From a virus: 28,292 nucleotides of DNA. The translations under genes and the position numbers were made by a program. The notes under the pieces are model-generated. The model did no database searches. It was not told the origin of the DNA and saw nothing but the letters and a program-made list of their open reading frames with translations. Shown here one piece after another: positions 3,938 through 25,684 of this stretch (positions are counted from its first letter, which is position 1; every line of letters begins with the position of its first letter). The DNA lies in IMG/VR virus record IMGVR_UViG_3300025108_000286, positions 1-28,292 of that record; one strand, written 5' to 3'.

Positions 3938-3951
3938 ACACATTATATATA

Positions 3952-3979: not shown

Positions 3980-3985
3980 TAGTTT

Positions 3986-5127: not shown

Positions 5128-5128
5128 A

Positions 5129-10261: not shown

Positions 10262-10271
10262 TTATTTTTCC

Positions 10272-11861
10272 TTAATAACCAAAGGTAGCATCTGCTACTC
10301 GCATACCACCTTGTGAACTTACGTTTGGATCGTAATCAAATATACTAAATCGTGGTCTTGACATAATACCATACCTCAAAGCATCGTACAAGTGATCTTC
10401 GGAGGTAGTGTCAATATCTTCTGGGTTTCTTTTGTCGATTGGTAAGGCGGGTAATTGAGCAACAATATTGGTACAATTATTAAAGAACACCATACGAGGC
10501 TCTTCTGTATATTCGTCAACCTGTAACCTTCTATGTATTTCGTTTTTACCAGCTACACGTGAGCCTTTGGATCTATCTGAAGGACGCCAACGACACCCAC
10601 GCTGAATCATTTGTTCAGCCAGTGATGGGCCAGTATCACCACGCTTGTGCCATAAAGAGCTATCAAGAACGCCATACTTAATATTTCCATCTTCAGCCTC
10701 TAAATCTAATACCATATCTGCTAAATCAGCAGCTAATACTTTACTTACGTACAACTCTCTATAAATAAACAATTGCTCATTAGGAGCTACGGCAAACCAA
10801 ATTACTCCAGACTTACTTCCATAGCCGTAGTCACATGCTCTAAACTTTACCCAATTACTAGGGATATCAAAAGGATCAACTACGTGTATGTTTCTATCAA
10901 ACTCTGTAAAAGCTGCGCCTTCTTTAATATCCCAATCACCATCTAGTAACTGTCTACGCTGCTGTTCAGGTAAAGATAGAAGCATTGCTTCGTAATCACC
11001 TTGTTCAGCTAGGTAAGGATTATCGGAAAGACGGGCAGGTATAAACCTACGTTTGAATAAAGGCTTACCAGCTTTGGCATGTCCAGCAGGATAAGATAGT
11101 ACCTCAGTCGTTTCAATATCTGTAGCATTAAACGCTTCACCATATGGCGCAGGGTCAATAAACATTTTCTTAACCCAATGATGCCCTCTACCTCCTGGGT
11201 TGGTAGTAGCTCTCATATATACAGGTAAGTCAGAGGCGGTAGATCTCAAGCGACTTCGCATGTAGTTCCAAGCGAATGGGGTAGGCCACTGAGTCAATTC
11301 GTCAAAACCAATCCAGCTAAACGCAAGGCCTTGGTATCTTAATACATCATCTTCTTTATCTAAGTAAGACATCCACAGTCTAGCACCAGAGGGTGCAGTC
11401 CATTGCATCTTACGTTCTGACCACTTAATTCCAGGCCATATCTTAGGATACATTTCCTGTGACTTAAAGATAAGTTCTCTTAGTTCTTCTGTAGTATGTC
11501 GTAGGAGCAATCCTGAGAAGGCTGGGTGGCCCATAAAGCGTAAAGGGTCAGCGAGCATTGCATATGACTTACCCCCACCTGCAGAGCCACCATATAGAAC
11601 CTCACGTTCACCTGCAGCTAAGAAGTCTGTTTGTGGTCCAGCATTAGGTTTAAATATTACATTATGCTGTTCTTCTATAGGTGCTAATTCAGGTTCTACT
11701 ATTTTAGCTGGTTTAGGCTGCGCTTGTTTCTTGGCTGTCGTTGTCTTGCGCTTTTGCCCCGATGCGGTTGCGTTCAATTTCTTCCGCTTTGGCGACTGCC
11801 TTTTTCGCATAGTCTGCCCATCTGCGTAGGCTTCCAGCTTTGTTTTTTCTTCTTCGCTCAT
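10272..11861 (-). CDS. Terminase large subunit
   Basis: 529 residues. The ATPase has Walker A GGSAGGGKS at 91-99, Walker B with catalytic Glu in FDELT at 186-190, and a coupling segment RATTNPGG near 218. The nuclease domain shows the three expected acidic positions: D344 (RACDYGYG), D400 (GVLDSSLW) and D489/D493 (EDHLYDALRYG). It cuts and translocates genome DNA into the head through the portal. Residues 1-60 are Lys/Arg-rich and unlike the family core, and they are encoded where this frame overlaps the upstream gene by 149 nt. A start at M17 (11813) is possible; neither start has a strong ribosome site. Confidence 0.92.
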   Translation of the reverse strand: MSEEEKTKLEAYADGQTMRKRQSPKRKKLNATASGQKRKTTTAKKQAQPKPAKIVEPELAPIEEQHNVIFKPNAGPQTDFLAAGEREVLYGGSAGGGKSYAMLADPLRFMGHPAFSGLLLRHTTEELRELIFKSQEMYPKIWPGIKWSERKMQWTAPSGARLWMSYLDKEDDVLRYQGLAFSWIGFDELTQWPTPFAWNYMRSRLRSTASDLPVYMRATTNPGGRGHHWVKKMFIDPAPYGEAFNATDIETTEVLSYPAGHAKAGKPLFKRRFIPARLSDNPYLAEQGDYEAMLLSLPEQQRRQLLDGDWDIKEGAAFTEFDRNIHVVDPFDIPSNWVKFRACDYGYGSKSGVIWFAVAPNEQLFIYRELYVSKVLAADLADMVLDLEAEDGNIKYGVLDSSLWHKRGDTGPSLAEQMIQRGCRWRPSDRSKGSRVAGKNEIHRRLQVDEYTEEPRMVFFNNCTNIVAQLPALPIDKRNPEDIDTTSEDHLYDALRYGIMSRPRFSIFDYDPNVSSQGGMRVADATFGY

Positions 11862-12141
11862 TATCTAACCGTTTCTTTAATCCTACGTGAGATATGGTTC
11901 TGCCAGTGTTTCGGGTTAGCCAGTTGGCAACCTCACGATACGAGTACTGCTTTAAGTACTTCTTGGCTTTCACAAGCATATCAAGTTCGTTATCAATTGG
12001 CAAGAGTATTCCGTCATCTTCTGGATCTAATTCATATCCAAATGGTACTGTTCTTGCTACACGTGGAATAGGAACCCATTCATTGTCTTCTTGTAGGTCA
12101 GTCGGTTGTGGTAGTTTCCATTGTCCTAATGGCTTAGTCAT
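11713..12141 (-). CDS. Helix-turn-helix protein between the terminase subunits
   Basis: 142 residues from the ATG at 12141, chosen because AGGA lies 5 nt upstream; the ATG at 12147 has AGG directly adjacent. Residues about 60-100 (KYLKQYSYREVANWLTRNTG followed by RTISHVGLKKRLDNERRRK) resemble the helix-turn-helix of resolvase-type recombinases, without a catalytic domain. The C-terminus is basic and helical. It overlaps the small-subunit gene by a few bases and the large-subunit start by 149 nt. A DNA-recognition partner of the terminase is plausible; I do not know a function for the family. Confidence 0.7.
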   Translation of the reverse strand: MTKPLGQWKLPQPTDLQEDNEWVPIPRVARTVPFGYELDPEDDGILLPIDNELDMLVKAKKYLKQYSYREVANWLTRNTGRTISHVGLKKRLDNERRRKNKAGSLRRWADYAKKAVAKAEEIERNRIGAKAQDNDSQETSAA

Positions 12142-12508
12142 CGTCATCCTGTGCTTGTTTAGCTGGCATTAACATAACGCCACCCTTAGCTTCTACCTGC
12201 ATCTTCTCAGTTTTAACTAAACCAGTACGATCTAGTAATTCTTTAGCGGCAGACATTTTATCACGAATACCTAACTCAGTAGGATCATACAAAGCACTAA
12301 CCATAGCCATTGCAGCTTTAGGTACGTTACGTGCTAAGTAGCTGTGTGTTACATCAATAATCTCTTCTTTAAGACTATTGGTTATTTCACGGTTAGGTGT
12401 ATTGGGCGAATACCCAGCAAGTTTCTTAGCCATAGTAACATCGCCACCTGCCTCATCCATAAGTACATCTAAAAACTTTTGTTGACGTTCTGTTAATTCA
12501 CGAGCCAT
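12134..12508 (-). CDS. Terminase small subunit-like protein
   Basis: 124 residues. The N-terminus (LTERQQKFLDVLMDEAGGDV, then KKLAGYSPNTPNREITNSLK) is the helix-turn-helix pattern of small terminase subunits of the Terminase_2 type. The middle (AAMAMVSALYDPTELGIRDK, AAKELLDRTGL) matches the oligomerisation part, and the end is acidic (QAQDDDD). In the family it binds the packaging site and controls the large subunit. It is separated from the large subunit by one HTH gene, so which of the two proteins does the recognition is open. Confidence 0.78.
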   Translation of the reverse strand: MARELTERQQKFLDVLMDEAGGDVTMAKKLAGYSPNTPNREITNSLKEEIIDVTHSYLARNVPKAAMAMVSALYDPTELGIRDKMSAAKELLDRTGLVKTEKMQVEAKGGVMLMPAKQAQDDDD

Positions 12509-12509
12509 A

Positions 12510-12962
12510 TTACATCATTTCAAAATGTGGGGCATCAATAAAAGGTCTACGTCCTTGTGACCTACGGAGATCTACATATGCGTTCATTGCATCTTCTGCA
12601 GTACCAGCATACTCTCTAATGTCTCCTTCACTCCATGCAGCACCCCATTTAATTGCTACATCATTCTTTCTAGCGGCTTCAGCCATAGCATCACAGATGT
12701 CATCATAGACATTGAGTTCCCAAGAAATGTCTGAACCAAAGTATGCAACTAGATCTACAGCACGACCCTCAAGATGCTTAGACTTCATAGTCTGTGATCT
12801 ACCAGATTCGTACAGTTTCTTTTGTTCTTCTAGTGTACGTAGTCCAAAGGTAACACCAAAGTCTACTTTTGTAATACCAATAGCGTCCTTTACGACTGCT
12901 ACAATACCTTCGTCTACACCATCTAGTTTCTTTAAACTTCTACTGCTTAATTTAAATGCCAT
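12510..12962 (-). CDS. M15-family peptidase endolysin
   Basis: 150 residues. The zinc-site pattern of M15/VanY-type peptidases is complete: H63 in SKHLEGRAVDL with D70 (H-x6-D) and H146 in DAPHFEM. VDFGVTFGLRTLEEQKKLY is the typical N-terminal stretch, and KWGAAW is a substrate-side motif. The expected reaction is cleavage of peptide cross-links in peptidoglycan (L-Ala-D-Glu or D-Ala carboxypeptidase type), as in T5 endolysin. No signal peptide is seen, so a holin is needed; two membrane proteins lie directly upstream. The start overlaps the preceding stop as TAATG. Confidence 0.88.
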   Translation of the reverse strand: MAFKLSSRSLKKLDGVDEGIVAVVKDAIGITKVDFGVTFGLRTLEEQKKLYESGRSQTMKSKHLEGRAVDLVAYFGSDISWELNVYDDICDAMAEAARKNDVAIKWGAAWSEGDIREYAGTAEDAMNAYVDLRRSQGRRPFIDAPHFEMM

Positions 12963-13315
12963 TACTTCTTCCCAAAAAACTTACTTACAGAACGAATACC
13001 AATGCTGGCACTGACAATTCCACCTAGTGAATACTGATACCATGCTGGCATAGTTTCCAATGCAGCAAAGCCAGCTTGTACTATACTGTTACCCCAATCA
13101 CCACAGAACGCTAGAATTAGTGGTATTGAGAAGAGTAAAGTAATCCATTCATCTTTCCATGAGTTCTGAGTAGCATTAATAGCTGCTAGATCCCAGTCAA
13201 TCTCACCAGTAGCTTGTTTTACTTTGATTTCAGCATTAGCTTTCTGTACTGCTACTTTACCATCAAGGTACGTAGTTGCTAGTCCACCTACTGCTCCTAA
13301 GATCTGACCAATCAT
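12962..13315 (-). CDS. Putative holin (3TM/GTA-holin-like)
   Basis: 117 residues. An N-terminal hydrophobic segment (MIGQILGAVGGLATTYL) is followed by a charged linker with NAEIKVKQATGEIDWDLAAI, then ATQNSWKDEWITLLFSIPLI leading into a second membrane helix and a third near 90-105 (YSLGGIVSASIGI), ending basic. The SWKDEW-membrane-Leu/Ile pattern resembles the three-helix holin family of gene transfer agents and prophages. It lies directly upstream of the endolysin with a TAATG overlap. Holin role is inferred from topology and position. Confidence 0.65.
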   Translation of the reverse strand: MIGQILGAVGGLATTYLDGKVAVQKANAEIKVKQATGEIDWDLAAINATQNSWKDEWITLLFSIPLILAFCGDWGNSIVQAGFAALETMPAWYQYSLGGIVSASIGIRSVSKFFGKK

Positions 13316-13518
13316 TTCTCATGCCCCAGCCAAACGGCAAATGCACCAGTCATAGCACCAGTTACAGTGGCAGTAAGTGCTGTAGCCTGTGATGTCATAT
13401 CACCAGAAGACAAAGACATAAACCAAAACAAAACTTCAATGTACATCCACGTCATTACTAACATCATTAGTCTTGGCATAATCTTCCAAGCTAACACACG
13501 TTCCATTGCTATAGTCAT
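13312..13518 (-). CDS. Small two-helix membrane protein, possible second holin
   Basis: 68 residues with two hydrophobic segments (about 15-35, MLVMTWMYIEVLFWFM; about 48-64, TATVTGAMTGAFAVWL) joined by a polar loop, N-terminus basic. It overlaps the next gene by ATGA. Size, topology and place before the endolysin fit a class II-like holin or antiholin. It may instead be a spanin-like accessory, though no lipobox is visible. Confidence 0.65.
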   Translation of the reverse strand: MTIAMERVLAWKIMPRLMMLVMTWMYIEVLFWFMSLSSGDMTSQATALTATVTGAMTGAFAVWLGHEK

Positions 13519-13764
13519 TTAAGTTCTCCTGAATCTTGAGGTTTTCTTTGCAATTTTCTTAGGCTGAGCCACAAACTGCTGACCTGCCTTCGTGCCTCTT
13601 CGTTTAGCTCTGGTTGTAGCGGCATACTCACTGCTGCTAAGAGACTTAATAGCCTTAGCAGGTAGATACCGCTCACCAGTTTTAGCACTAGGCTTCCCAC
13701 TTTTAGTTCGCCAATCTTGCTTAGTCCATTTCTTTAAAGACTTTTGAGATTTAGAGAGAGCCAC
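13519..13764 (-). CDS. Small basic phage protein
   Basis: 81 residues starting at GTG, overlapping the preceding stop as TAGTG. It is highly basic, with the pattern KSLKKWTKQDWRTKSGKPSA followed by TGERYLPAKAIKSLSSSEYA. I recognise this as a short conserved family in marine phages (DUF5872-like); the family number is from memory. No known enzymatic activity. A nucleic-acid-binding or virion-packaged role would fit the charge, but this is not shown. Confidence 0.7.
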   Translation of the reverse strand: MALSKSQKSLKKWTKQDWRTKSGKPSAKTGERYLPAKAIKSLSSSEYAATTRAKRRGTKAGQQFVAQPKKIAKKTSRFRRT

Positions 13765-13949
13765 TACCTGTAGCCCCCACCTTTTGCTTTGTATTGTTTT
13801 GCGACCATTTGTGCCTTACGTGCGCTCCACTGTCCAGCTTTTCCACCTTTGCTGCCAGCCTTAACGGATGCAACAAGACGTTTGCGCATAGTAGGCTTAG
13901 TATAATTTCCTGCCGCATTAACCGTAGACTTTTTGCCTGATTTCGCCAC
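13764..13949 (-). CDS. Small basic phage protein
   Basis: 61 residues from GTG at 13949, preferred because GGGGAT lies upstream and the product then starts AKSGKKSTVNAAGNY as I remember for this family; ATG at 13967 and GTG at 13982 are in-frame alternatives. The remainder (YTKPTMRKRLVASVKAGSKG, then GKAGQWSARKAQMVAKQYKA) is very basic and Gly-rich. The 5' end overlaps the DUF1127 gene. Family members occur next to the previous gene type in marine phages; function unknown. Confidence 0.65.
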   Translation of the reverse strand: MAKSGKKSTVNAAGNYTKPTMRKRLVASVKAGSKGGKAGQWSARKAQMVAKQYKAKGGGYR

Positions 13950-14058
13950 GACTGATCCCCATGTCATGCAGTTCCTTATCACTTAGATTCATAAGAATCC
14001 AATAGTCGGCTCTGCGTTGCTGATTTTCTTGTAGTTTCTTAAACATACGTTTAAACAT
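13918..14058 (-). CDS. DUF1127-type microprotein
   Basis: 46 residues starting MFKRMFKKLQENQQRRADYW. The second half (LSDKELHDMGISRGEIRQKV) carries the DUF1127 signature L-S-D-x-E-L-x-D-x-G-[IL]-S-R-x-[ED]-I. In bacteria such proteins are short Arg-rich RNA-associated regulators in Alphaproteobacteria and YjiS-like proteins in enterics; a phage copy fits an alphaproteobacterial host. A strong GGAG lies 7 nt upstream of the start but can pair with the leader (see 14062-14113). The gene overlaps the next one by 32 nt. The reading frame and motif are clear; the role in the phage is unknown. Confidence 0.8.
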   Translation of the reverse strand: MFKRMFKKLQENQQRRADYWILMNLSDKELHDMGISRGEIRQKVYG

Positions 14059-14061
14059 ATT

Positions 14062-14113
14062 CTATCTCCTTTACAAATACAAAGGTAAGAAATACTTACC
14101 CTTATGGAGATAG
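14062..14113 (-). promoter_or_regulatory. Leader hairpin covering the DUF1127 ribosome site
   Basis: On the minus strand CTATCTCC (14113-14106) is perfectly complementary to GGAGATAG (14069-14062), which contains the Shine-Dalgarno GGAG of the DUF1127 gene. Inside, CTTACC and GGTAAG form a second 6-bp stem with loop TATTT. The outer stem starts about 8 nt from the predicted transcript start. This would hide the ribosome site until melted or cleaved, so translational control (thermosensor, processing site or protein-bound) is a reasonable reading. Confidence 0.6.
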
Positions 14114-14127
14114 TTATATCATACTTA

Positions 14128-14156
14128 GTTATAACATAGTATAGATAAGATTGCAA
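14128..14156 (-). promoter_or_regulatory. Sigma70-like promoter of the lysis/packaging operon
   Basis: Reading leftward, TTGCAA (14156-14151) is followed after 17 nt by TATAAC (14133-14128), in the 110-nt gap before the DUF1127 gene. ATAGTTATATCATA (14110-14123, plus-strand reading) just downstream is identical to the word over the capsid promoter. Confidence 0.55.
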
Positions 14157-14168
14157 CCCCGTTATGCA

Positions 14169-14537
14169 TTAAGTGCGATTCGGGTCAAAGTACTCTTCTA
14201 CAGAAACAAGTACTTCCATAGTGTTAGTAGTTTCACCGTACACTAAAATTTTATCGCCTGAGTGTAAGTTAAAGTATCCACCATTAACTAGGTTAGCTAC
14301 AGAGTGTCCTGCCATACTAAGTCCATTAGCTATGTAATGGTACTCGTTATCGTCAGCATGGTAAAACTGAACAAACACTTTCTTAGTAGAAGTAGAACTG
14401 TTACTAATGTGTAGATACCTAGTAATGGCACTAAAGTTAGCAGGGCAAGTATACACAGCGGTAGCACTAGCATCTGCCGAAGTAGATGCAATAGTGTACC
14501 CTTGTGTGTGAAACTTTGACTTACTTAGATCAGGCAT
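14169..14537 (-). CDS. Small beta-rich protein, possible virion decoration/fibre protein
   Basis: 122 residues, Ser/Thr/Tyr-rich, predicted mostly beta: TAVYTCPANFSAITRYLHIS, KKVFVQFYHADDNEYHYIAN, GGYFNLHSGDKILVYGE, ending VSVEEYFDP. No membrane segment or catalytic motif. Short beta-sandwich proteins of this kind in phage late modules are often head decoration or fibre-associated proteins; that is inference. The AAGGAAG site upstream supports the start at 14537. The following 110 nt hold a promoter, so this gene ends its own transcription unit. Confidence 0.65.
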   Translation of the reverse strand: MPDLSKSKFHTQGYTIASTSADASATAVYTCPANFSAITRYLHISNSSTSTKKVFVQFYHADDNEYHYIANGLSMAGHSVANLVNGGYFNLHSGDKILVYGETTNTMEVLVSVEEYFDPNRT

Positions 14538-14546
14538 GTAGCTTCC

Positions 14547-14789
14547 TTATGCTATAATAAAATCTACGATCTGCCCATCAGGTGTACGTAGTTTGTTTGG
14601 ATTAGGGTTGTATGCATACATCTGATTTACTAGCTTTAGGTCTTCTATTGGTGTATCAGGCGTAATTCGATTAGGTTCTTTTTTATCTGTTTGTTTCTCA
14701 ACTGGTTCACCTACACCATTCTCAAACACAATATTTACATGTGTTTGAAATGGCATGTTGGGTAATGGTAAATGAGAAATAAGAGACAT
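14547..14789 (-). CDS. Hypothetical protein
   Basis: 80 residues, start overlapping the preceding stop as TAATG. Composition is polar with Asn/Pro-rich parts (YAYNPNPNKLRTPDGQI) and a beta-like stretch THVNIVFENGVGEPV. No recognised domain. The last nine residues are hydrophobic. It lies in a run of small late genes, and a structural or accessory role is only a guess. Confidence 0.6.
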   Translation of the reverse strand: MSLISHLPLPNMPFQTHVNIVFENGVGEPVEKQTDKKEPNRITPDTPIEDLKLVNQMYAYNPNPNKLRTPDGQIVDFIIA

Positions 14790-14935
14790 TACTTCTTTTT
14801 CTTAGTTGCCATGCCACCACGCATCATTTTCTTTTTGGGTGCCATACCGCCCCCACGCATCATGGTTTTCTTTTTAGCCATACCACCACCACGCATAGGT
14901 GTTTTCTTTTTCATTGCTCTAGGTTTCATTGCCAT
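14789..14935 (-). CDS. Met/Lys/Gly repeat microprotein
   Basis: 48 residues built from three copies of a unit close to MRGGGMAxKKK (MRGGGMAKKKTM, MRGGGMAPKKKM, MRGGMATKKKK) after MAMKPRAMKKKTP. It has no acidic residues and would be strongly cationic. The reading frame is supported by TAATG coupling to the next gene and a 10-nt overlap with the preceding one. Similar basic Gly-rich endings (YMKSGGKV, MRKGGLFR) occur at the C-terminus of the protein encoded at 15453-16286. DNA condensation in the head or membrane interaction are possible roles; neither is shown. Confidence 0.65.
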   Translation of the reverse strand: MAMKPRAMKKKTPMRGGGMAKKKTMMRGGGMAPKKKMMRGGMATKKKK

Positions 14936-15453
14936 TGTTTCTGTCTCCGTTTTCTTCTATCTAACACGAGTGCTTCATACTCGTCTTTAGGATACACATC
15001 ATAATATCCTAACTTTTCTAAACGTAAACTTGCGTCATCTACTTTACTTAAAGACTGAATAAACAACATAGCGTATTCATCTTCTATGTCAGACTCCCAC
15101 TCATGCTCATACAAAAAGTCTAAGTCTGCATCTTCTGCACCGTAGTCAGGATGAAACTCCATTATGTGTAAATCTCTAGGTGTATAAAGATCATTTAAAA
15201 ACATAGTAAACTCTTTAAGGTGTACTGGAGAAGGATAATAGTACGAAGCAACAATAACTAAGTCATACGTATTGTCAAAACTATTGGCTTGTGTAATGGC
15301 TTCAATACCAAGATGCTTAGTTTCTATTACATTTACTTTGTTTTGTTTCCAAGCTTGCTGTGCATACGGACATGCGGGTAGGCCACCTAAAGTGTCGTTA
15401 GGTACTTCTAATACTTTACGTGACCAATCCCGTATATCACTTTCTATGCTCAC
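14926..15453 (-). CDS. Hypothetical protein, acidic
   Basis: 175 residues from GTG overlapping the preceding stop (TAGTG). The N-terminus has IRDWSRKVLEVPNDTLGGLP then ACPYAQQAW, a Cys-Pro pattern that I have seen in marine phage proteins of unknown function. A hydrophobic strand DLVIVASYYYPSP and a very acidic second half (DYGAEDADLDFLYEHEWESD) follow, ending with a basic RRKRRQKQW tail. An alpha/beta fold is likely. No catalytic motif can be named. Confidence 0.65.
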   Translation of the reverse strand: MSIESDIRDWSRKVLEVPNDTLGGLPACPYAQQAWKQNKVNVIETKHLGIEAITQANSFDNTYDLVIVASYYYPSPVHLKEFTMFLNDLYTPRDLHIMEFHPDYGAEDADLDFLYEHEWESDIEDEYAMLFIQSLSKVDDASLRLEKLGYYDVYPKDEYEALVLDRRKRRQKQWQ

Positions 15454-16286
15454 TAGCGGAACAAGCCACCCTTACGCATATCTACGTGACCCTTAGTAAC
15501 TTTGCCACCACTCTTCATGTAGCCCATTTTGTTACGTACAGCAGTAGGCAGTTTCTTTAAGCCAGCTTGATCTGCGGCAGGTTTAGTGAGTCCACCACGT
15601 TTGTAGCCTCGTTTGGATTTAAATTTATCAGCTACTTTTTTACCTTCTTCTTCTTGCTTCTTAACGTAAGCTGCTAATTCAGCTTTAGTCATGTTACGAG
15701 GATCTTTTTTACCAGAAGGCTTGCTAGTTTCTGCTTTACGAGAGGGAAGGGCATCAGGCAACGTTATTTTCTTTTTACCCGTAGCACCTGCTTGTGCTTT
15801 ACGAGAAGCTGCTACCGCCGCTGCTTTATCTGCCGCATCAACTTTCTTTTCGATAGCATCAAATTCTGCTTGTGTAATTTTATTAGCACGTAAATTTTTA
15901 CCTGCTTCAACTAAAACATCTGCACGTTGCTTATCAGTAAAGGAACGATACACGCCCATAGATAACGGCTTATTGCCTGCTTGCGTTGTTATAGCTGACA
16001 TGCTACCAGTAGCAGAAGAGCTTCGTTCTTTTTCTGACTGCCTACGTTTGTCAGGATCTTTAGGTAATTGACCTTTAGGTTTCTTCGCAGCAGCGTCTGC
16101 TTTTTTCATAGCATCAATTTGTTTATTTGCCAAAGCATTAATTTCTGCTAATGCATCCTTTTCAGCCTCGCCTTTAAGTTTAGGATTATCTAAAACTTTT
16201 TGACGAATCTCGCTCTTTACACTACGTACACCACCAGGTGTCTTAGGTTTCATTAATTTTTGTAGTAACGTTTTTATTCCAGCCAT
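15453..16286 (-). CDS. Lys/Ala-rich protein, probably virion-associated
   Basis: 277 residues from the ATG at 16286, which has AAAGGAA 9 nt upstream; an in-frame upstream start at 16334 overlaps the preceding gene and has no good site. The product is low complexity: Lys, Ala, Glu and Asp in helical stretches (ADKAAAVAASRKAQ), then a Gly/Lys-rich end (KSKRGYKRGGLTKP, YMKSGGKVTKGHVDMRKGGL). Such endings recur in small proteins of this region. Probably extended or disordered. Internal head or DNA-associated protein is a guess. Confidence 0.65.
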   Translation of the reverse strand: MAGIKTLLQKLMKPKTPGGVRSVKSEIRQKVLDNPKLKGEAEKDALAEINALANKQIDAMKKADAAAKKPKGQLPKDPDKRRQSEKERSSSATGSMSAITTQAGNKPLSMGVYRSFTDKQRADVLVEAGKNLRANKITQAEFDAIEKKVDAADKAAAVAASRKAQAGATGKKKITLPDALPSRKAETSKPSGKKDPRNMTKAELAAYVKKQEEEGKKVADKFKSKRGYKRGGLTKPAADQAGLKKLPTAVRNKMGYMKSGGKVTKGHVDMRKGGLFR

Positions 16287-16299
16287 TGTTTGGTTTCCT

Positions 16300-16593
16300 T
16301 TACCATTTAACTTTATGCGACCAATATCTCGCACTTAGCTTACTAGGCTTAGAGTCTTGAGCATTGTGTCTTGCGTAATAACTCTTCTTACGAGCTTTGT
16401 CTTTTGCAGTTGTAGGACTCTTACCAGCACCCTTTACACCCTGCTGTCCGAATCTAATAAATTTATACGTGTCACCTTCTTTAGCCATTACGCAGTGTGA
16501 CTTCTTAGGATGCTTAGGTGTCCTCTTAGGTTTGTTAACACCAGAGAGTCCTTCCTCTTTCATTTTAGTTTTAACTCTTTCAGGTACGCTCAT
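16300..16593 (-). CDS. Small basic phage protein with RFGQQGVKGAGK motif
   Basis: 97 residues from ATG 16593, which has AAGGA 7 nt upstream; GTG 16611 is the in-frame alternative. The core HCVMAKEGDTYKFIRFGQQG then VKGAGKSPTTAKDKARKKSY, ending LSARYWSHKVKW, belongs to a small family common in marine phages (DUF6321-like, from memory). It is very basic. The beta-hairpin start and conserved Gly-rich loop suggest a small folded nucleic-acid-binding domain, but no function is established to my knowledge. Confidence 0.72.
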   Translation of the reverse strand: MSVPERVKTKMKEEGLSGVNKPKRTPKHPKKSHCVMAKEGDTYKFIRFGQQGVKGAGKSPTTAKDKARKKSYYARHNAQDSKPSKLSARYWSHKVKW

Positions 16594-17038: not shown

Positions 17039-17215
17039 CCCCTAATCGTACTATTGTAACATTATGTGATATACTGAAACATTCCGTTACCTAGTGATAG
17101 CACGTACTGTGTTATAATATAACGTACCTACGAGTATGTAAACCACCTTCTGTGTATAGTGGTTAACAGTGCATTTTACTGATCTGTGTAGAAGTACATG
17201 TATATATAACGTATA

Positions 17216-17318: not shown

Positions 17319-17432
17319 CATATCAAAGATATGAATGATATCAACAGCTTATTTGTCTACGACAACTGTTATGCAATCAGTTGCCATACTAAAGTATGAA
17401 AAAACACAGCACATTTTCACACCTTTGGTGTG
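17319..17432. repeat. Regular array of four short palindromes
   Basis: CATATC-AAA-GATATG (17319-17333), TTGTC-TAC-GACAA (17353-17365), CATACT-AA-AGTATG (17385-17398) and CACACC-TTT-GGTGTG (17418-17432) are each perfect palindromes with a 2-3 nt centre. The three gaps between them are each exactly 19 nt. The sequences differ, only the symmetry and spacing are constant. Confidence 0.6.
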
Positions 17433-17464
17433 TTGCAGTGCCGATGCTCATTATAACACCACCC

Positions 17465-17479
17465 ACCATCTGTGATGGT
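17465..17479. repeat. Palindrome ACCATC-TGT-GATGGT
   Basis: Perfect 6-bp arms with a 3-nt centre, same design as the array units upstream but off their spacing. ATGCGCAT follows at 17481-17488. Confidence 0.5.
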
Positions 17480-17542
17480 CATGCGCATCATCACATAGCA
17501 TATCCACGAGCCGCATGTAGCTCTGCCAATGGATCACCAACC

Positions 17543-17556
17543 GTCCAACATTGGAC
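17543..17556. promoter_or_regulatory. GTCCAAYRTTGGAC palindrome, copy 1
   Basis: GTCCAACATTGGAC, flanked by CAACC and ACTTC, in the divergent region about 275 bp before the first early gene. First of six identical-core copies. Confidence 0.65.
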
Positions 17557-17560
17557 ACTT

Positions 17561-17575
17561 CACATCTTTGATGTG
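17561..17575. repeat. Palindrome CACATC-TTT-GATGTG
   Basis: Perfect 6-bp arms with a TTT centre, 4 bp after the first GTCCAAYRTTGGAC copy and close in sequence to CACACC-TTT-GGTGTG at 17418. Confidence 0.5.
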
Positions 17576-17645
17576 GCAATTAAGCAACAGTTTCAGTGAC
17601 CCAACCCAAACTTGGCTTGTGAGTTTAGCGCACGAACTTCACTAC

Positions 17646-17663
17646 GTAGTTAGTGCTAACTAC
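17646..17663. repeat. Palindrome GTAGTTAG-TG-CTAACTAC
   Basis: Perfect 8-bp arms around TG. The 2-nt centre makes an RNA hairpin unlikely without opening the stem, so a dimeric protein site or a cruciform in DNA is likelier. Confidence 0.5.
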
Positions 17664-17735
17664 TACGTTGCAGTCATACGGGAAACGACAGGCGCAGAGG
17701 ATCACGAGGCAACTTTTCTCTGGACAAACTCTATA

Positions 17736-17817
17736 CTATCTTCTAATAGTTTTATAAGAGAATTATATCTCACTTCTTGTGAGAGATATAAGTTCTCTTT
17801 TATAAAACAGAAGATAG
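17736..17817 (+). other. 82-nt near-perfect hairpin before the first early gene
   Basis: CTATCTTCT at 17736 pairs with AGAAGATAG ending at 17817; inside, GTTTTATA pairs with TATAAAAC, AAGAG with CTCTT, TATA with TATA and CTCAC with GTGAG, closing on TTCTT (17774-17778). About 33 base pairs form with four small bulges. It ends 14 nt before the start codon, just ahead of the ribosome site. It may be an RNase III processing site, an mRNA stabiliser or a DNA cruciform. Confidence 0.7.
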
Positions 17818-17831
17818 ATAGGAAAACGAAA

Positions 17832-18404
17832 ATGGCAAACTCAACAGCAACAACCGGTACTTCAATAGACGCTTTAGTGAAAGAGGGCAAAGCCCTTGGT
17901 TCAATTTGGCGTCAAGTGAACAGCCTCAAGCAAACCATCAAAGAGAATGGTTTTGATACAAGGTTGGGTAAATTGCTACAGCAATTGAAAGCGTCATCTA
18001 CTGTAGACAGCGGTCAAATACCAACACATGTTCTTCGAACACATGGTATTCAGCAGATTGATCGTCGCCGTCGTTCAGAAGCTTTGTGGTTCGTTGAAAA
18101 CGAAAAAGAGTGTCGTGAGTTTATTGCCAATGGCAATTTCAAAGGTTCATCACTGACAGCTTTACAAGCTGCAATGCGTAAAGCTGCTAAAGCAGATGAC
18201 GCTGAAACCACCGAAGGTGAAGTGTCCAATGTTGGACAGTCTGAGCCTACTGAACAGCCAAAGGCTGATGCACCTAAGCCTCGTATCACTCACAAGGTGA
18301 TGGTGAATACCATCCTTGCTCAAGCTGAACTCAATGGCTTGGATCTTGAAAAGATCATTGAAGATCTGATGGCTGCTGTTCCTTCACAGCAAGTGGCAGC
18401 ATGA
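17832..18404 (+). CDS. First early protein, unknown function
   Basis: 190 residues from the ATG at 17832, with TAGGAAAA upstream; an in-frame extension back to 17529 would run through the hairpin and a palindrome and is rejected. Residues 10-55 are helical and basic (LVKEGKALGSIWRQVNSLKQ), 60-120 contain the charged segment IQQIDRRRRSEALWFVENEK and a helical LTALQAAMRKA, and after a Thr/Glu/Pro linker (125-150) a helical end follows (LAQAELNGLDLEKIIEDLMA). It could bind nucleic acid. One GTCCAAYRTTGGAC copy lies inside the gene and encodes NVGQS (133-137) in the linker. I do not recognise the family. Confidence 0.8.
   Translation: MANSTATTGTSIDALVKEGKALGSIWRQVNSLKQTIKENGFDTRLGKLLQQLKASSTVDSGQIPTHVLRTHGIQQIDRRRRSEALWFVENEKECREFIANGNFKGSSLTALQAAMRKAAKADDAETTEGEVSNVGQSEPTEQPKADAPKPRITHKVMVNTILAQAELNGLDLEKIIEDLMAAVPSQQVAA
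18224..18237. promoter_or_regulatory. GTCCAAYRTTGGAC palindrome, copy 2 (inside a gene)
   Basis: GTCCAATGTTGGAC within the linker-coding part of the first early gene. Its right flank AGTCTG is shared with copy 6. Confidence 0.65.
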
Positions 18405-18601
18405 GGTACAAAGTACCTAACACCAAAGCCAGCGTTGAGCAATCACAGCTTGACGCTGCTATGGCACAGTTCTGCGAACTCGCAGACGATATGAACCGTC
18501 CAACATTGGACACTTTGATTGCTAACACATTAACTCCTAAAGAGTTAAAGAAACGTGAACCAACACTTATCTACGATAGTGGATGGAAGGATGCATCATG
18601 A
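18401..18601 (+). CDS. Hypothetical early protein
   Basis: 66 residues, start overlapping the previous stop as ATGA. The product is helical (VEQSQLDAAMAQFCELADDM) with a short second part (LTPKELKKREPTLIYDSGW). It includes RPTLDTL encoded by a GTCCAAYRTTGGAC copy. No known domain. Position directly after the first early gene suggests coexpression. Confidence 0.65.
   Translation: MRYKVPNTKASVEQSQLDAAMAQFCELADDMNRPTLDTLIANTLTPKELKKREPTLIYDSGWKDAS
18498..18511. promoter_or_regulatory. GTCCAAYRTTGGAC palindrome, copy 3 (inside a gene)
   Basis: GTCCAACATTGGAC, flanked by AACC and ACTTTG as in the leader copies, within the 66-residue gene. Confidence 0.65.
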
Positions 18602-18798
18602 ATTACTCTGTAATTGTATTAAATGCTGATGGTGAAACCATCTTTGAAACCAAACCATATGATGGTGACTGTGAACTGGCTGGGAAAGCTATGGGCAGAT
18701 GCGCTGACAGATGGGAAAAACGTGGCTACGAAGTAGAGTTTCGTGAAACAAAAGACGCTGCTGTGGATTTACATTTGCATGGGTGGCACAATGATTAA
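18598..18798 (+). CDS. Hypothetical early protein
   Basis: 66 residues from the ATG at 18598, overlapping the previous stop (ATGA) and with AAGGA upstream; the in-frame ATG at 18583 lies deeper in the previous gene. The sequence MNYSVIVLNADGETIFETKP looks like a beta-hairpin start, followed by a helix (CELAGKAMGRCADRWEKRGY) and a strand (EVEFRET). A small alpha/beta protein; function unknown. Confidence 0.65.
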   Translation: MNYSVIVLNADGETIFETKPYDGDCELAGKAMGRCADRWEKRGYEVEFRETKDAAVDLHLHGWHND

Positions 18799-18961
18799 AA
18801 TCATTCTCGCCATTGCTTGGTCTGTAATACTTGTATTACTTACCTATTTGACCATTGCTGTTGTGTCACTCAATGGTCACTTGCACATACTCATTGGCAT
18901 TGCGGTTCCCGTTGCAATGTTGGGGTTTATCACAATTTGTGAAAGGCCGCTTGACAAGTAG
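18791..18961 (+). CDS. Small early membrane protein
   Basis: 56 residues from the ATG at 18791, which overlaps the preceding stop; the longer frame from 18743 lies mostly inside the previous gene. Two hydrophobic segments (IILAIAWSVILVLLTYLTIA and HILIGIAVPVAMLGFITI) are joined by a short polar turn, ending ERPLDK. An inner-membrane protein acting early in infection, perhaps in host takeover or superinfection exclusion; this is a guess from topology. Confidence 0.65.
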   Translation: MIKIILAIAWSVILVLLTYLTIAVVSLNGHLHILIGIAVPVAMLGFITICERPLDK

Positions 18962-18970
18962 TATTACATA

Positions 18971-19012
18971 GTTATATAAACACTTGATACTTTAGTGAAA
19001 GTGTTATATAAC
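18971..19012 (+). promoter_or_regulatory. Promoter inside an inverted repeat
   Basis: GTTATATAAACACTT (18971-18985) and AAGTGTTATATAAC (18999-19012) are inverted repeats with one bulged A. TTGATA (18984-18989) and TATAAC (19007-19012), 17 nt apart, make a good sigma70-like promoter within it, 64 nt before the next gene. The symmetry suggests regulator binding over the promoter. Confidence 0.55.
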
Positions 19013-19042
19013 ATATGTATAATACTAAAGATAACTGAAACC

Positions 19043-19056
19043 GTCCAATGTTGGAC
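19043..19056. promoter_or_regulatory. GTCCAAYRTTGGAC palindrome, copy 4 (gene leader)
   Basis: GTCCAATGTTGGAC between AACTGAAACC and ACTTTAAACGGAGT, 19 nt before a start codon. The whole leader is nearly repeated at copy 5. Confidence 0.7.
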
Positions 19057-19075
19057 ACTTTAAACGGAGTTTACT

Positions 19076-19339
19076 ATGTTCTATCAAGATCTCTGCCAAA
19101 CATACTCAGATGTATACAAAGACTTTCATGGTGTACGTCCACCATCAGGCCATAACATGTCCGTTGTAGAGTTGCTAGAGCAAATTGATATGTACCAAAA
19201 GTACATAGAAGAAGATCTAGCACAAGAACGTGCCATTGAGGATGCAAGCATCAATGCTTGTATGGATCATGGTGCTCCTGACATAGACACTGCCATGCGG
19301 TGGCTTGAACAAGCTAACATCCATGCTCAATGGGTGTAA
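19076..19339 (+). CDS. Hypothetical early protein, acidic
   Basis: 87 residues, with CGGAG upstream of the start. It is helical and acidic (MSVVELLEQIDMYQKYIEED, LAQERAIEDASINACMDHGA) and has no membrane segment or known motif. It is preceded by a palindromic promoter and a GTCCAAYRTTGGAC copy and followed by a large inverted repeat, so it forms its own regulated unit. Function unknown. Confidence 0.68.
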   Translation: MFYQDLCQTYSDVYKDFHGVRPPSGHNMSVVELLEQIDMYQKYIEEDLAQERAIEDASINACMDHGAPDIDTAMRWLEQANIHAQWV

Positions 19340-19446
19340 GCAGATATAAGTACACTTGGAAGTTATATTTAACTTTCACTATACATAATCAATGGTGTGG
19401 AGATAGGCCGTCCAGTCTACAACCCAAGTGTATTTTTATCTGCTTA
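19337..19446 (+). ncRNA. Candidate structured RNA, cloverleaf-like leader
   Basis: A 23-nt arm at 19337-19359 (from TAAGCAGATA to ACACTTGG) pairs with 19424-19446 (CCAAGTGT to ATCTGCTTA) with 21 matches. The 64-nt interior can form three more stems: AAGTTA/TAACTT, CACTAT/ATGGTG (one G-T pair, 9-nt loop) and TGGA/TCCA (9-nt loop). The element fills the gap before the GP88-like gene and begins at the preceding stop codon. It does not match any riboswitch or tRNA consensus I know. It could be a regulatory leader or a processed small RNA. Confidence 0.5.
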
Positions 19447-19455
19447 ACTGAAACC

Positions 19456-19469
19456 GTCCAATGTTGGAC
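19456..19469. promoter_or_regulatory. GTCCAAYRTTGGAC palindrome, copy 5 (gene leader)
   Basis: GTCCAATGTTGGAC between AACTGAAACC and ACTTTTACGGAGT, 20 nt before the next start, copying the arrangement of copy 4. Confidence 0.7.
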
Positions 19470-19489
19470 ACTTTTACGGAGTAACCGTT

Positions 19490-20119
19490 ATGACTAAACC
19501 TGCAGTACACATTTCAACCATGACAGGCAAGCTGGATGGATTTCGTGCCATCAGCACAAACACTCGTACAAATACATATTGCCTTGAGCAACATGAACGT
19601 GCAGTAGAGCACAAGACTGACAATATTTGTGGTGATTGCTATAGCCATGCTATGCTCAAGGGCTATCGTAAAAACATGGCTCCTGCCTTACAACGTAACA
19701 GTGATTTGTTGGCTACCCGTCCATTGGAACCGTATGAAATACCACGCATTAATGATGCAGTATTTCGTTTCAATGCTCATGGTGAATTGATCAACATGCA
19801 GCATATGGAAAACCTTATGGCTATTGTCCTTGACAATCCTTGGTGCACATTCGCCCTATGGACGAAACGTGTGGACCTAGTATTCCGTTGGCTACGTAAC
19901 AATGCCAAGCCATCCAATTTGAATTTGATTTACTCAAATCCTAAGAAGTCGCATATCATGTCAAAGCCACCAAAACATTTTGACAAGACGTTCAACAACG
20001 TGCTAGAACATGAGCATGTAGATCAACAAAACTGCACTGGGCAGAAGTGCAAAGACTGTCGTATCTGCTACACTATGAACGACATATTCACCATTGTAGA
20101 GAAGGTTAAAAAGTATTAA
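19490..20119 (+). CDS. GP88-like Cys-rich phage protein
   Basis: 209 residues, with ACGGAG upstream of the start. ICGDCY (46-51) followed by LKGYRKNMAPALQRNSDLL, FRFNAHGEL (92-100) and WCTFALWTKR (118-127) is a pattern I associate with phage GP88/Gp37-Gp68-type proteins. The C-terminus adds a second cysteine cluster, C182-x4-C187-x2-C190-x2-C193. Metal binding, by zinc or an iron-sulfur cluster, is likely. The biochemical role of the family is not known to me. It is the first gene after the structured leader and the repeat, and it overlaps the next gene as TAATG. Confidence 0.75.
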   Translation: MTKPAVHISTMTGKLDGFRAISTNTRTNTYCLEQHERAVEHKTDNICGDCYSHAMLKGYRKNMAPALQRNSDLLATRPLEPYEIPRINDAVFRFNAHGELINMQHMENLMAIVLDNPWCTFALWTKRVDLVFRWLRNNAKPSNLNLIYSNPKKSHIMSKPPKHFDKTFNNVLEHEHVDQQNCTGQKCKDCRICYTMNDIFTIVEKVKKY

Positions 20120-20739: not shown

Positions 20740-20924
20740 TGCTCTACCTATTGTTCACACCTTTCGCTGGCTACTTTGCTATGCTAATTACTATTGTAAT
20801 CATGCACAGCGTAGGCTATGACGTGAGAGGTGTGGACACCTTCACTATCTGGTGTGTATACATTCAGATATACGTATACTTATTTGTGATAACAAAACTG
20901 AAAGGTAAAACCGATGAGAGTTGA
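20739..20924 (+). CDS. Small early membrane protein
   Basis: 61 residues, TAATG-coupled to the HTH gene. Two hydrophobic segments (LYLLFTPFAGYFAMLITIVI and WCVYIQIYVYLFVITKL) are separated by a polar turn with VRGVD. Inner-membrane location expected; function unknown. Confidence 0.62.
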   Translation: MLYLLFTPFAGYFAMLITIVIMHSVGYDVRGVDTFTIWCVYIQIYVYLFVITKLKGKTDES

Positions 20925-21285
20925 AGTATACTTCAATCTACATAAGAAAACATTCTCTGTTCGTTCATGTGAGACAGGTAGAGTTATACATCACACTGAC
21001 GAAATACACATTGTAAACCCTGAGTTTGTAGTGCGTCAGTCAGGGCGTAACCGTGTGCTCAGTGAGGGCAGGAAGAATGTTCATGCCTTTGTGCGAGGTA
21101 ATTGCCCTTTTTACCGTCTTAATCCAAGGAACGCAACATTGGACACGATAACCTACAATCCATACAAGTATGTATCTTTTGTTGACAAGCAGACAGAAGA
21201 ACCTGTATACGAAGCAAGTCGGGCATGGCTAACTGTGACCGACAAGATACCAACAATACAAGCAGAAGGAGTACAATATGACTAA
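20914..21285 (+). CDS. Conserved phage protein of unknown function
   Basis: 123 residues overlapping the previous gene by 11 nt. MRVEVYFNLHKKTFSVRSCE, then FVVRQSGRNRVLSEGRKNVH and AFVRG, is a pattern I recognise from short conserved phage early proteins. Predicted mostly beta with basic patches, without catalytic signature. A half site of the dispersed palindrome lies within (21135-21146). A role with nucleic acids is possible but not shown. Confidence 0.7.
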   Translation: MRVEVYFNLHKKTFSVRSCETGRVIHHTDEIHIVNPEFVVRQSGRNRVLSEGRKNVHAFVRGNCPFYRLNPRNATLDTITYNPYKYVSFVDKQTEEPVYEASRAWLTVTDKIPTIQAEGVQYD

Positions 21286-21550
21286 GCTAAAAACAAAACT
21301 AACTCGTGACGAAGTACAGAAACTATGTGACTTGTACAACGCAATGGATAGCATCCTAGATGGCGCAGGTGAAACGTTTGACGTTAGCCTAAGTGATCTA
21401 CATAGCTTGCGTAATGAGGCATGGAAGCTACGTGGCATGTTTGAGTTCAGAAGTCAGAAGCATGACGAAGATCCAAACAGACCTGCACACTGGATGCCGC
21501 AGGTATTACCTGACGATGATCGTGCATGGTATTACAATGCCGAGCATTAA
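21278..21550 (+). CDS. Hypothetical early protein
   Basis: 90 residues, start overlapping the previous gene by 8 nt, with AAGGAG upstream. Helical first part (LTRDEVQKLCDLYNAMDSIL, DLHSLRNEAWKLRGMFEFRS) and an acidic aromatic end (DDDRAWYYNAEH). No recognised domain. Confidence 0.65.
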   Translation: MTKLKTKLTRDEVQKLCDLYNAMDSILDGAGETFDVSLSDLHSLRNEAWKLRGMFEFRSQKHDEDPNRPAHWMPQVLPDDDRAWYYNAEH

Positions 21551-21776
21551 GGCATACGAAATTGTCTTAGAGATTGATGGACAGGAGAGTTGTATCACAC
21601 TTGATGATACCTTTCCTGCCATTGATAGCTGGGCAAGTGCTTGCAGCATGGCAGTCCTGATGGCAAAGCACATTCACCCCGACAAGGAAGTAGAGTTCGT
21701 ATCATGTGCAGAATACGAAGCAGACGAGTATGCAGACATTGGTTATGTCTATGATGCACCAGTAGTATTGCAATAG
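21537..21776 (+). CDS. Hypothetical early protein, acidic
   Basis: 79 residues from ATG 21537, overlapping the preceding stop; a longer in-frame start at 21393 lies inside the previous gene. IKAYEIVLEIDGQESCITLD suggests a beta-hairpin, followed by a helix (WASACSMAVLMAKHIHPDKE) and an acidic end (CAEYEADEYADIGYVYDA). Small alpha/beta protein; function unknown. Confidence 0.6.
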   Translation: MPSIKAYEIVLEIDGQESCITLDDTFPAIDSWASACSMAVLMAKHIHPDKEVEFVSCAEYEADEYADIGYVYDAPVVLQ

Positions 21777-21785
21777 GAGAAAGCA

Positions 21786-22172
21786 ATGGCAGCTAAGATT
21801 AAACTAACTAAAACGATGCTTGATAAGAGCATCATTGACGCCAACAAAACTGTGCAAACTTTTTTGCTAGAGGACTTTGGTATGGACTATACCGACAAGT
21901 TTTTTACTGAAACAATCTTCAACGCTGAGAAAGATAAGTGGGAGCGTAACAAGTTCACTGTCACAGGTGAATACATTGATGGCACAGAAGCTGTCATCAC
22001 ATTCTATCGCAGCGGCAAGCGTGGTGATAGACGCATTAGCATCCAGAAGCTAAGGCAATATGCAGATGCAGGTAATGAAGTACGCCTCATCTCAGACAGC
22101 GAAAGCGATGGCGATGGTACACGTATATTCATATCAGTCTACACATCTGGATCAGAAACCGATGCCGCCTGA
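21786..22172 (+). CDS. Hypothetical early protein
   Basis: 128 residues, with AGGAGAAAGC upstream of the start. Helical N-terminus (LDKSIIDANKTVQTFLLEDF), beta-rich middle (TVTGEYIDGTEAVITFYRSG, KRGDRRISIQKLRQY), then RLISDSESDGDGTRIFISVY. No recognised domain. The order helix then antiparallel sheet suggests a small folded domain. Confidence 0.68.
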   Translation: MAAKIKLTKTMLDKSIIDANKTVQTFLLEDFGMDYTDKFFTETIFNAEKDKWERNKFTVTGEYIDGTEAVITFYRSGKRGDRRISIQKLRQYADAGNEVRLISDSESDGDGTRIFISVYTSGSETDAA

Positions 22173-22227
22173 TGATCCATGTGATGATTGGTCAGGTACA
22201 CCTTTACCTAAGAGGAAAGACAAATGA
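22162..22227 (+). CDS. Possible 21-residue microprotein
   Basis: ATG at 22162 to TGA at 22225-22227 encodes MPPDDPCDDWSGTPLPKRKD plus one Lys. It overlaps the preceding gene and its stop overlaps the next start as ATGA. The tight coupling is the only support, as the frame is too short to judge by itself. Confidence 0.3.
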   Translation: MPPDDPCDDWSGTPLPKRKDK

Positions 22228-22619
22228 TTGAAGCAGCATTGATGTGCCTTGCACTTAACGTGTACTTTGAGGCACGTAACGACAGTATGGTTGGACAGTA
22301 TGCCGTAGCACAGGTAGTCATGAACCGTGTGCAGTCCAGCAAGTTTCCCAATGACGTGTGCTCTGTGGTTAAGCAGTCACGTAATGACGGTACATGCCAG
22401 TTTAGTTGGTACTGTGACGGTAAAAGTGACAGGCCACGTGAGGCATATGCATGGGCTTATGCTCAGATGGTTGCAGCAGATACCTTGATAGGTCAGGGTA
22501 TTGATGTGACAGACATTACACAAGGTGCAACGCACTATCATGCAAACTATGTACGTCCATATTGGGCTGACAAACTAGAGTACACTGTGACTTATGGGTC
22601 ACACCTGTTCTACAAATAG
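22224..22619 (+). CDS. SleB-like cell wall hydrolase (Hydrolase_2)
   Basis: 131 residues. CLALNVYFEARND (8-20) with catalytic-type E16, then GQYAVAQVVMNRV (24-36), CQFSWYCDG (58-66) and GATHYHANYV (101-110), is the full signature of SleB-type hydrolases, which cleave the glycan strand of peptidoglycan. No signal peptide is evident. The AGAGGAAAG site precedes the start. Its place in the early module, far from the M15 endolysin and holins, is unusual; a virion enzyme or a second lysis enzyme are options. Confidence 0.85.
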   Translation: MIEAALMCLALNVYFEARNDSMVGQYAVAQVVMNRVQSSKFPNDVCSVVKQSRNDGTCQFSWYCDGKSDRPREAYAWAYAQMVAADTLIGQGIDVTDITQGATHYHANYVRPYWADKLEYTVTYGSHLFYK

Positions 22620-22700
22620 CTAACGCCCCTTAGTAGGGTATTGTATAGCTTACATAACTATGGCACAGTTGCCGCATACTTAACACAAGGAGAAAATAGT

Positions 22701-23549
22701 ATGGCTTTTGATTTTAATCACCCAGATATCGTACCTGATTACATGGACTTTGACGTAGCCTTTGAGCCAACCAAGGTGAAAGACAAGAAGTACGTCATCA
22801 ATGCTTCATCAGGTGAATACCTTGGCGTAGTAGGTAACACGTTTACTTGTGCGTCACACGGTGACTTTTACCGTGGTGTCCTTGACACAGTGACAGAAGA
22901 ACTGTCTGACCATGAGTTAGCAAATGCCAATACACATTGGCGTACTGCACGTAATGGTGCATGGGCTATGCTTGACATCACCCTGCCCAACATGAAGACT
23001 GTCATTGAGACAGACAAACACAGCACTGAGATTGGTAATCGTATCATATCATTACATGGTATTGACGGATCGTGCAGCAATCAGGTGTACTTTGGTGCCA
23101 TTGATTTCTTTTGTACCAATGGAATGATTAGAGGGGAGTATGACAAAGTGCGTAAGAAAAACACATCTAACTTTACTATGGAAAGTTTCATCTATGAACT
23201 GACACGGGCACGTAAGGACTTCTACGAAGAAGCCAGCAAGATGCAAGTGTGGGCACAGACTGACCTCAAGTATGTAGATGTAAGCTCACTGCTTGACAGC
23301 ATGATTGCATCTAAGCGTAAGTCTGAGAAGATGTACAGCTTGTACATGCAAGAGGCTTCACAACGTGGTCACAACAAGTGGGCACTGTATTCTGCCTTCA
23401 CCAACTATGCCAGCTATGCTGATGAGCGCAATGGGTTCAACCTGCGTAACACTGGCAATGACACACAGGCTGTAAGCATGTGGTCACGTGAGCAAGAGGT
23501 ATCTAAGTGGGTATCTGATGACAAGTTCATCACCTTGGAAGCGGCTTAA
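22701..23549 (+). CDS. DUF932 protein
   Basis: 282 residues from ATG 22701, with AAGGAGAAAA 10 nt upstream; an in-frame start at 22641 has no site. VKDKKYVINASSGEYLGVVG, then FYRGVLDTVTEEL, ARNGAWAMLDITLP, GIDGSCSNQVYFGAIDFFCT and NGMIRG match the DUF932 (phage/plasmid-like TIGR03299) pattern. Such proteins are common in phages and plasmids and have unclear functions; an accessory role in recombination or defence escape has been suggested from context. Followed by a TAATG-coupled small gene and the recombinase. Confidence 0.8.
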   Translation: MAFDFNHPDIVPDYMDFDVAFEPTKVKDKKYVINASSGEYLGVVGNTFTCASHGDFYRGVLDTVTEELSDHELANANTHWRTARNGAWAMLDITLPNMKTVIETDKHSTEIGNRIISLHGIDGSCSNQVYFGAIDFFCTNGMIRGEYDKVRKKNTSNFTMESFIYELTRARKDFYEEASKMQVWAQTDLKYVDVSSLLDSMIASKRKSEKMYSLYMQEASQRGHNKWALYSAFTNYASYADERNGFNLRNTGNDTQAVSMWSREQEVSKWVSDDKFITLEAA

Positions 23550-25681: not shown

Positions 25682-25684
25682 CAC

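Follow-up and report, generated by a model that had tools for sequence, protein, structure and literature searches.

The DNA analysed here (the window), 28292 bases long, is a complete IMG/VR virus record. By blastn and tblastn it falls with the Roseobacter phages CRP-1 and CRP-345, which belong to subgroup I of the HMO-2011-type phages (PMC6918029, PMC9038755). The genome is laid out as a structural arm running leftward and an early/replication arm (integrase, primase and DnaB-type helicase) running rightward, and the divergent region between the two arms is the site of an array of approximately 30 perfect palindromes of 12-18 nt, located between 17319 and 19260 (Table 1). The array covers the divergent intergenic region and all of the first early gene, referred to here as gene 1, and continues further to the right. 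The ORF caller placed the start of gene 1 at 17529; the conserved protein begins at the ATG at 17832. The array is also found in HMO-2011, CRP-1, CRP-345 and IMG/VR relatives, all of them HMO-2011-type phages. In CRP-1 the cumulative GC skew has its minimum at the array, which is compatible with an origin and also with divergent transcription.

Table 1. Gene 1, units of the array and the sequence-conserved palindrome in the window (loop or centre in brackets; strand "." where none is assigned).
Feature	Coordinates	Strand	Remarks
Gene 1, 190 aa	17832..18404	+	N-terminal part basic and tail acidic; found together with array
Hairpin 1, CATATC(AAA)GATATG	17319..17333	+	R-N-A triloop on + strand
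Hairpin 2, TTGTC(TAC)GACAA	17353..17365	-	Loop reads GTA on - strand
Hairpin 3, CATACT(AA)AGTATG	17385..17398	.	Also writable CATAC(TAAA)GTATG
Hairpin 4, CACACC(TTT)GGTGTG	17418..17432	-	
Hairpin ACCATC(TGT)GATGGT	17465..17479	-	
GTCCAACATTGGAC, palindrome	17543..17556	.	Sequence-conserved, separate class; copies at 18223, 18498, 19043, 19456, 20293
Hairpin CACATC(TTT)GATGTG	17561..17575	-	
Palindrome GTAGTTAG(TG)CTAACTAC	17646..17663	.	
Hairpin AGGGC(AAA)GCCCT	17884..17896	+	Within gene 1
Hairpin AATTGCT(AC)AGCAATT	17971..17986	.	Within gene 1; compensated variants in relatives
Hairpin TGTTC(TTC)GAACA	18029..18041	-	Within gene 1; relatives: TGTCC(TTC)GGACA
Hairpin TTCGTT(GAA)AACGAA	18090..18104	+	Within gene 1
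Hairpin ATTGCCA(A)TGGCAAT	18123..18137	.	Within gene 1; 8 different palindromes in slot among relatives, encoding different residues
Hairpin CAGCTT(TAC)AAGCTG	18157..18171	-	Within gene 1
Hairpin CTGC(TAAA)GCAG	18184..18195	.	Within gene 1
Hairpin CAGCC(AAA)GGCTG	18255..18267	+	Within gene 1
Hairpin GATCTT(GAA)AAGATC	18342..18356	+	Within gene 1
Hairpin AGGTAC(AAA)GTACCT	18404..18418	+	
Palindrome TCTGCGA(AC)TCGCAGA	18471..18486	.	
Hairpin AATTAC(TCT)GTAATT	18601..18615	-	
Hairpin GATGGT(GAA)ACCATC	18628..18642	+	
Hairpin AATGATT(AA)AATCATT	18790..18805	.	
Palindrome GTAATAC(TT)GTATTAC	18824..18839	.	
Palindrome CAAGCAT(CA)ATGCTTG	19245..19260	.	Dense array thins here, right end

The first-pass annotation of this DNA had described four palindromes, at 17319, 17353, 17385 and 17418, separated by gaps of 19 nt; all four are exact at these positions, and the three gaps (17334-17352, 17366-17384 and 17399-17417) have that length. 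The seven palindromes it reported between 17319 and 17663 (arms of at least 6, centre of at most 3) were likewise counted by us; 300 dinucleotide shuffles yielded a mean of 0.44, a maximum of 4 and no instance of seven. The genome scan with shuffled controls that it had proposed revealed 25 palindromes of this class in 17319-19500 as compared to 2.4 expected from dinucleotide shuffles, 12 (17.3 expected) in 1-16500 and 9 (7.8 expected) in 21000-28292; the excess is confined to the array, the remainder of the window being at or below chance. Gene 1 holds six such palindromes, whereas synonymous-codon permutation gave 0.94 on average and never more than 5, so that none of 1000 permutations reached six. 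A chance origin was ruled out by the dinucleotide shuffles together with the synonymous-codon control. As for location, the units assigned to 17319-17432 are real, but they are the left edge of a far larger array that overlaps coding sequence.

The distribution of the units was followed in relatives of gene 1, of which 47 encoding loci were fetched first and a later search gave 157 matches, 80 of them kept. The density profile, drawn from 54 non-redundant loci for palindromes with an arm of 6 and a loop of 2-3 at positions relative to gene 1, stands at 10-12/kb over most of -500 to +750, dips to 5/kb in the 250 bp immediately upstream of the gene, remains at ~4-5/kb out to +1500 and is 0.1-0.7/kb left of -1250. 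Stems of 6-8 bp with 2-3-nt centres were mostly 10-75 times enriched (arm 6 loop 3, 27-fold; arm 7 loop 2, 59-fold; arm 8 loop 2, 76-fold), and loops of at least 4 nt were little enriched. The units do not behave as a repeat family: no sequence is common to the copies, 233 distinct cores were found in 27 records, and among these records only GTCCAAYRTTGGAC and a few other cores recur widely. A sigma-70 promoter scan of the array region gave no excess over shuffles.

The centres of the first four units are spaced by ~33, 32 and 34 nt, and these spacings recur in three relatives (L045, L039 and L129), in which most slots hold other palindrome sequences than in the window. Among 13 divergent representatives, 25.8% of neighbouring spacings fall at 30-36 nt, compared to 8.1% expected and to a maximum of 14.4% in 2000 trials of random placement; some slots are shared by descent, so that these spacings are not independent events. 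The remaining spacings range from ~17 to more than 100 nt, and the coefficient of variation is not below random (0.857 versus 0.847), since gaps and missing units occur. The spacing is thus quasi-regular, and the 19-nt gap is no universal rule.

As observed when relatives are compared, stem sequences differ between phages, and the two arms change in concert, within codons as well. Among distinct block pairs with two arm substitutions, 30 of 83 were fully re-paired as compared to 2.9 expected from random placement; with four substitutions 20 were re-paired (0.7 expected), and with six substitutions 10 (0.1 expected), although compensated block pairs share ancestry and these counts are not independent events. 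The compensation check suggested by the first-pass annotation therefore shows a strong excess of double changes that restore pairing, as is characteristic of a structural element. Codon alignment gives for the 17971..17986 slot the variants AATTGCT(AC)AGCAATT, AACTCTT(AC)AAGAGTT, AACTTCT(TC)AGAAGTT and AACTGCT(TC)AGCAGTT, and for another slot in gene 1 TTGAAG(GTA)CTTCAA versus AAGTTG(GAA)CAACTT; upstream, the slot of hairpin 3 holds CACTC(TTTA)GAGTG, CAGTC(TTTA)GACTG, CACTACAAGTAGTG and others. One gene 1 slot codes for ANGNF, VDNKF, EASGF or AKAKY depending on the phage, and the palindromes thus accompany changes in the protein sequence. The proposal that symmetry and spacing are conserved while sequence is not stands as far as the compensated arms and a preferred spacing of ~33 nt are concerned, but not for a gap of exactly 19 nt throughout. 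Overall, the interpretation given in that annotation is supported, with corrections as to the extent of the array and the regularity of its spacing.

One-mismatch intermediates are rare. Between close pairs, differences per site amount to 0.099 in arms, 0.133 in spacers and 0.238 in loops. The comparison of the window with one relative (L020) had suggested that the palindromes are hypervariable; this was rejected, as arms proved less variable than spacers across 144 pairs. Among pairs of loops on identical arms, 17 of 99 are reverse complements of each other, a raw count for which no formal expectation was computed.

The loops follow rules of their own, most units having stems of 6-7 bp that enclose R-N-A triloops or C(TNNA)G centres. 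Distinct triloops number 100, and in 84 of them one strand reads R-N-A, as compared to 38.5 expected (binomial p 1e-20); the closing pairs of triloops are mostly Y-R (C-G 46%, T-A 35%), and centres of 2 nt mostly have the form T(NN)A. DNA tetraloops of the TNNA type form 2-nt miniloops. Upstream of gene 1 the R-N-A loops lie on both strands (17 on +, 15 on -), and from 0 to +750 there are 44 on the coding and 22 on the other strand. De-duplicated one-mismatch events in the gene slots comprise 17 G.T and 16 A.C; an excess of G.T in the counts before de-duplication (50 versus 20) is gone after it. The upstream units with R-N-A loops include 47 perfect ones and none with a G.T mismatch. A search of Rfam 15 at gathering cut-offs returned no matches. 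The mismatch classes, loop size and loop sequence point to hairpins that act as DNA and not as RNA. Predicted stabilities of single hairpins are modest (-1.0 to -4.2 kcal/mol) and DNA folding of the whole region is mildly better than that of shuffles (z -1.8 and -2.35), so that folding would need supercoiling, strand opening or a protein; as evidence, the whole-region folding energies were set aside as uninformative.

The linkage of the array to gene 1 was assessed in contigs from three helicase-anchored scans in which most of the upstream region was present. In each of the 23 records where gene 1 was matched the count reaches 5-16 units per 1.2 kb, and the 28 records without it hold 0-8 (median 2). 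Three of the latter, with 4-8 units, were removed from their group after the counts were seen: L006 is the end of CRP-1 that adjoins gene 1 across the record boundary, and L175 and L368 are presumed, without proof, to start downstream of gene 1. With these three removed, the remaining 25 records hold 0-3 units and do not overlap with the gene 1 group. The array is absent from CRP-2, CRP-603, CRP-207 and other records that lack gene 1 (for CRP-603 and HTVC033P the first 50 kb were read). As phages of the same subgroup without the array exist, this replication module can do without it. In a nine-genome comparison by protein clustering, the genes restricted to array-bearing phages include gene 1 and the gene at 20914. 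The latter (20914-21285) corresponds to HMO-2011 gp02, whose annotation notes a similarity to gp82 of mycobacteriophage L5. A DNA methylase gene is present in the early region of the array-less CRP-2, CRP-207 and CRP-603 (L059, L061 and L066), and none was seen annotated in the early region of CRP-1, CRP-345 or HMO-2011.

The product of gene 1 in the window (gp1) matched no Pfam or PHROG family, and no PDB entry either by sequence or by the fold of its model. Its first 122 residues have a pI of 10.0 and a charge of +6.7, the tail is acidic, and the predicted structure is all-helical (mean pLDDT 72.7). The sole significant viral fold match was S4S2E1, a protein of 205 aa, which is the length of HMO-2011 gp74. 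The gene for gp74 is located inside the array of that phage, and its comparison with the gene 1 profile gives a match probability of 96% (hhalign); by this sequence comparison, gp74 is a diverged homologue of gene 1. No relatives of gene 1 were found among 84,980 bacterial and archaeal genomes.

Several sequence-conserved elements lie in and around the array. The GTCCAAYRTTGGAC class, to which the palindrome at 17543 belongs, has 92 occurrences in 26 records and looks like an operator or promoter-linked site; the ATGs at 19076 and 19490 each have a copy ~33 nt upstream. A long conserved stem-loop at 17740-17820, directly before gene 1, has the core TATCTC..GTGAGAGATA and shows matching changes in relatives. 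The motif TGTTATATAACA, at 19002-19013, is present in 22 records at ~+840 to +1320 of gene 1. A conserved block between hairpins 2 and 3, GACAACTGTTATGCAATCAGTTGCC (17360-17385), forms the imperfect inverted repeat CAACTG..CAGTTG, and to the left of the array a conserved imperfect inverted repeat, AAACCAC..GTGGTTAAC (17139-17165), occurs in most aligned relatives.

Our main reading, to which we assign a probability of about 0.55, is that the region holds an array of compact DNA hairpins which selection maintains for their shape. Under negative supercoiling or strand opening the units would extrude or fold as mini-hairpins, as the promoter hairpins of phage N4 do, and a protein that reads shape, perhaps gp1, would bind them side by side. 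Such binding would explain the free stem sequence, the strict pairing and the regular spacing. Because its gene always accompanies the array and its first 122 residues are basic, gp1 appears to be the likeliest partner, although its role as the hairpin binder is put forward tentatively and its capacity to bind DNA is a guess from charge and linkage. The position between divergent arms at the GC-skew minimum would make a part in controlling either early transcription or the start of replication the likeliest role, an assignment that we offer with still more reserve. The model in full, in which sequence-free mini-hairpins in non-coding DNA and in the codons of gene 1 are read by gp1 assembling at ~33-bp steps, is doubtful as a whole.

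The main rival is that the region is often single-stranded and that template switching between imperfect arms during replication turns them into perfect palindromes and sometimes inverts a loop, with no function under selection. Homogenisation of inverted-repeat arms and inversion of spacers by template switching are known (PMC8604942, PMC7202029), and the rarity of one-mismatch intermediates, the fast change of loops relative to spacers, the reverse-complementary loops on identical arms and the altered residues encoded by changed palindromes are all as this process would have them. It does not predict the preferred spacing of ~33 nt or the retention of slots over long divergence, it leaves the sharp left edge and the linkage to gene 1 unexplained, and under it arms should vary no less than spacers, whereas the arms were seen to be less variable; we consider it unlikely as the whole explanation. 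Even where hairpins are selected, template switching may supply the mutations that alter them.

Selection for DNA shape has further to be weighed against readings in which the units serve as RNA, as operators or as promoters. Hairpins in the early transcript, acting in antitermination, stability or translation control, would agree with the preference of R-N-A loops for the coding strand in gene 1 and just downstream, with the long stem-loop before gene 1 and with the RNA folding of the upstream part (z -2.29). This reading was dismissed chiefly on the equal de-duplicated counts of G.T and A.C mismatches; the enrichment of 2-nt centres and not of the 4-nt loops typical of RNA, the presence of upstream R-N-A loops on both strands and the lack of an Rfam match also speak against it, and we regard it as improbable. 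An ordinary operator, bound by a dimeric regulator as double-stranded DNA, is what the GTCCAAYRTTGGAC class, with its conserved sequence at many positions, does resemble, and the other units do share a weak A/C-rich bias in their arms. These units are nevertheless heterogeneous and without a common half-site, yet each arm position matches its partner, and recognition of the duplex would not require free positions to pair perfectly, which makes this reading very improbable. Least probable of all is a role as promoters of the N4 type, used by a virion RNA polymerase: the hairpins are similar in size and in loop rule, but the stem sequence is unconserved, and ~30 units in both orientations and also within genes are not promoter-like. 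The six larger CRP-1 proteins scanned, structural proteins among them, match no polymerase family in PHROGs, but four of the six match nothing at all, which leaves room for a very divergent polymerase.

A DNA hairpin is usually regarded as an isolated regulatory curiosity or as a hazard that invites mutation. In this phage group, which is abundant in the ocean, dozens of them are maintained in one stretch and through protein-coding sequence, whether by selection or by a mutational process that acts very locally. More than 150 relatives of gene 1 in IMG/VR, together with isolates with and without the array, form a natural data set suited to the question whether non-B DNA is selected as such. 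A search of open-access text found no described element in which numerous DNA hairpins, compensated and free in sequence, run through coding sequence, and no prior description of DNA mini-hairpin arrays in phages; the papers on HMO-2011-type phages that were searched mention neither palindromes nor hairpins.

Among known systems, integron attC sites are recognised as folded single-stranded DNA. These and other folded single-stranded sites differ in being larger stem-loops, present in smaller number, on which a recombinase acts, and no cassette array was seen at the phage array. The early promoter hairpins of N4 (PMC4496689) resemble the units in that they are small, have purine-rich loops of 3 nt and lie in the early region of a phage. 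Their extrusion under supercoiling requires a C:G closing pair and the loop's 5' G and 3' A, which form a sheared pair (PMC4496689). The corresponding rule (5' purine, 3' A and C:G closure) is followed by most units of the array though not by all, as given above for loops and closing pairs, and the conserved stems of N4 have no counterpart, the 100 distinct 6+3+6 palindromes having only a weak arm bias. The early promoters of N4 number three and have conserved bases, and the phage carries a giant virion polymerase (PMC4496689), whereas the array has dozens of units in both orientations, also inside genes. Correction of quasi-palindromes by template switching (PMC8604942, PMC7202029) would account for perfect arms and loop inversion and also operates in coding sequence, but it is a mutational process and not an element, and carries no predictions of spacing, of slots or of linkage to one gene. 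REP/BIME, HIP1, iterons and CRISPR arrays likewise bring many short palindromes or repeats together in one place; they conserve sequence between copies, whereas the phage array conserves symmetry only.
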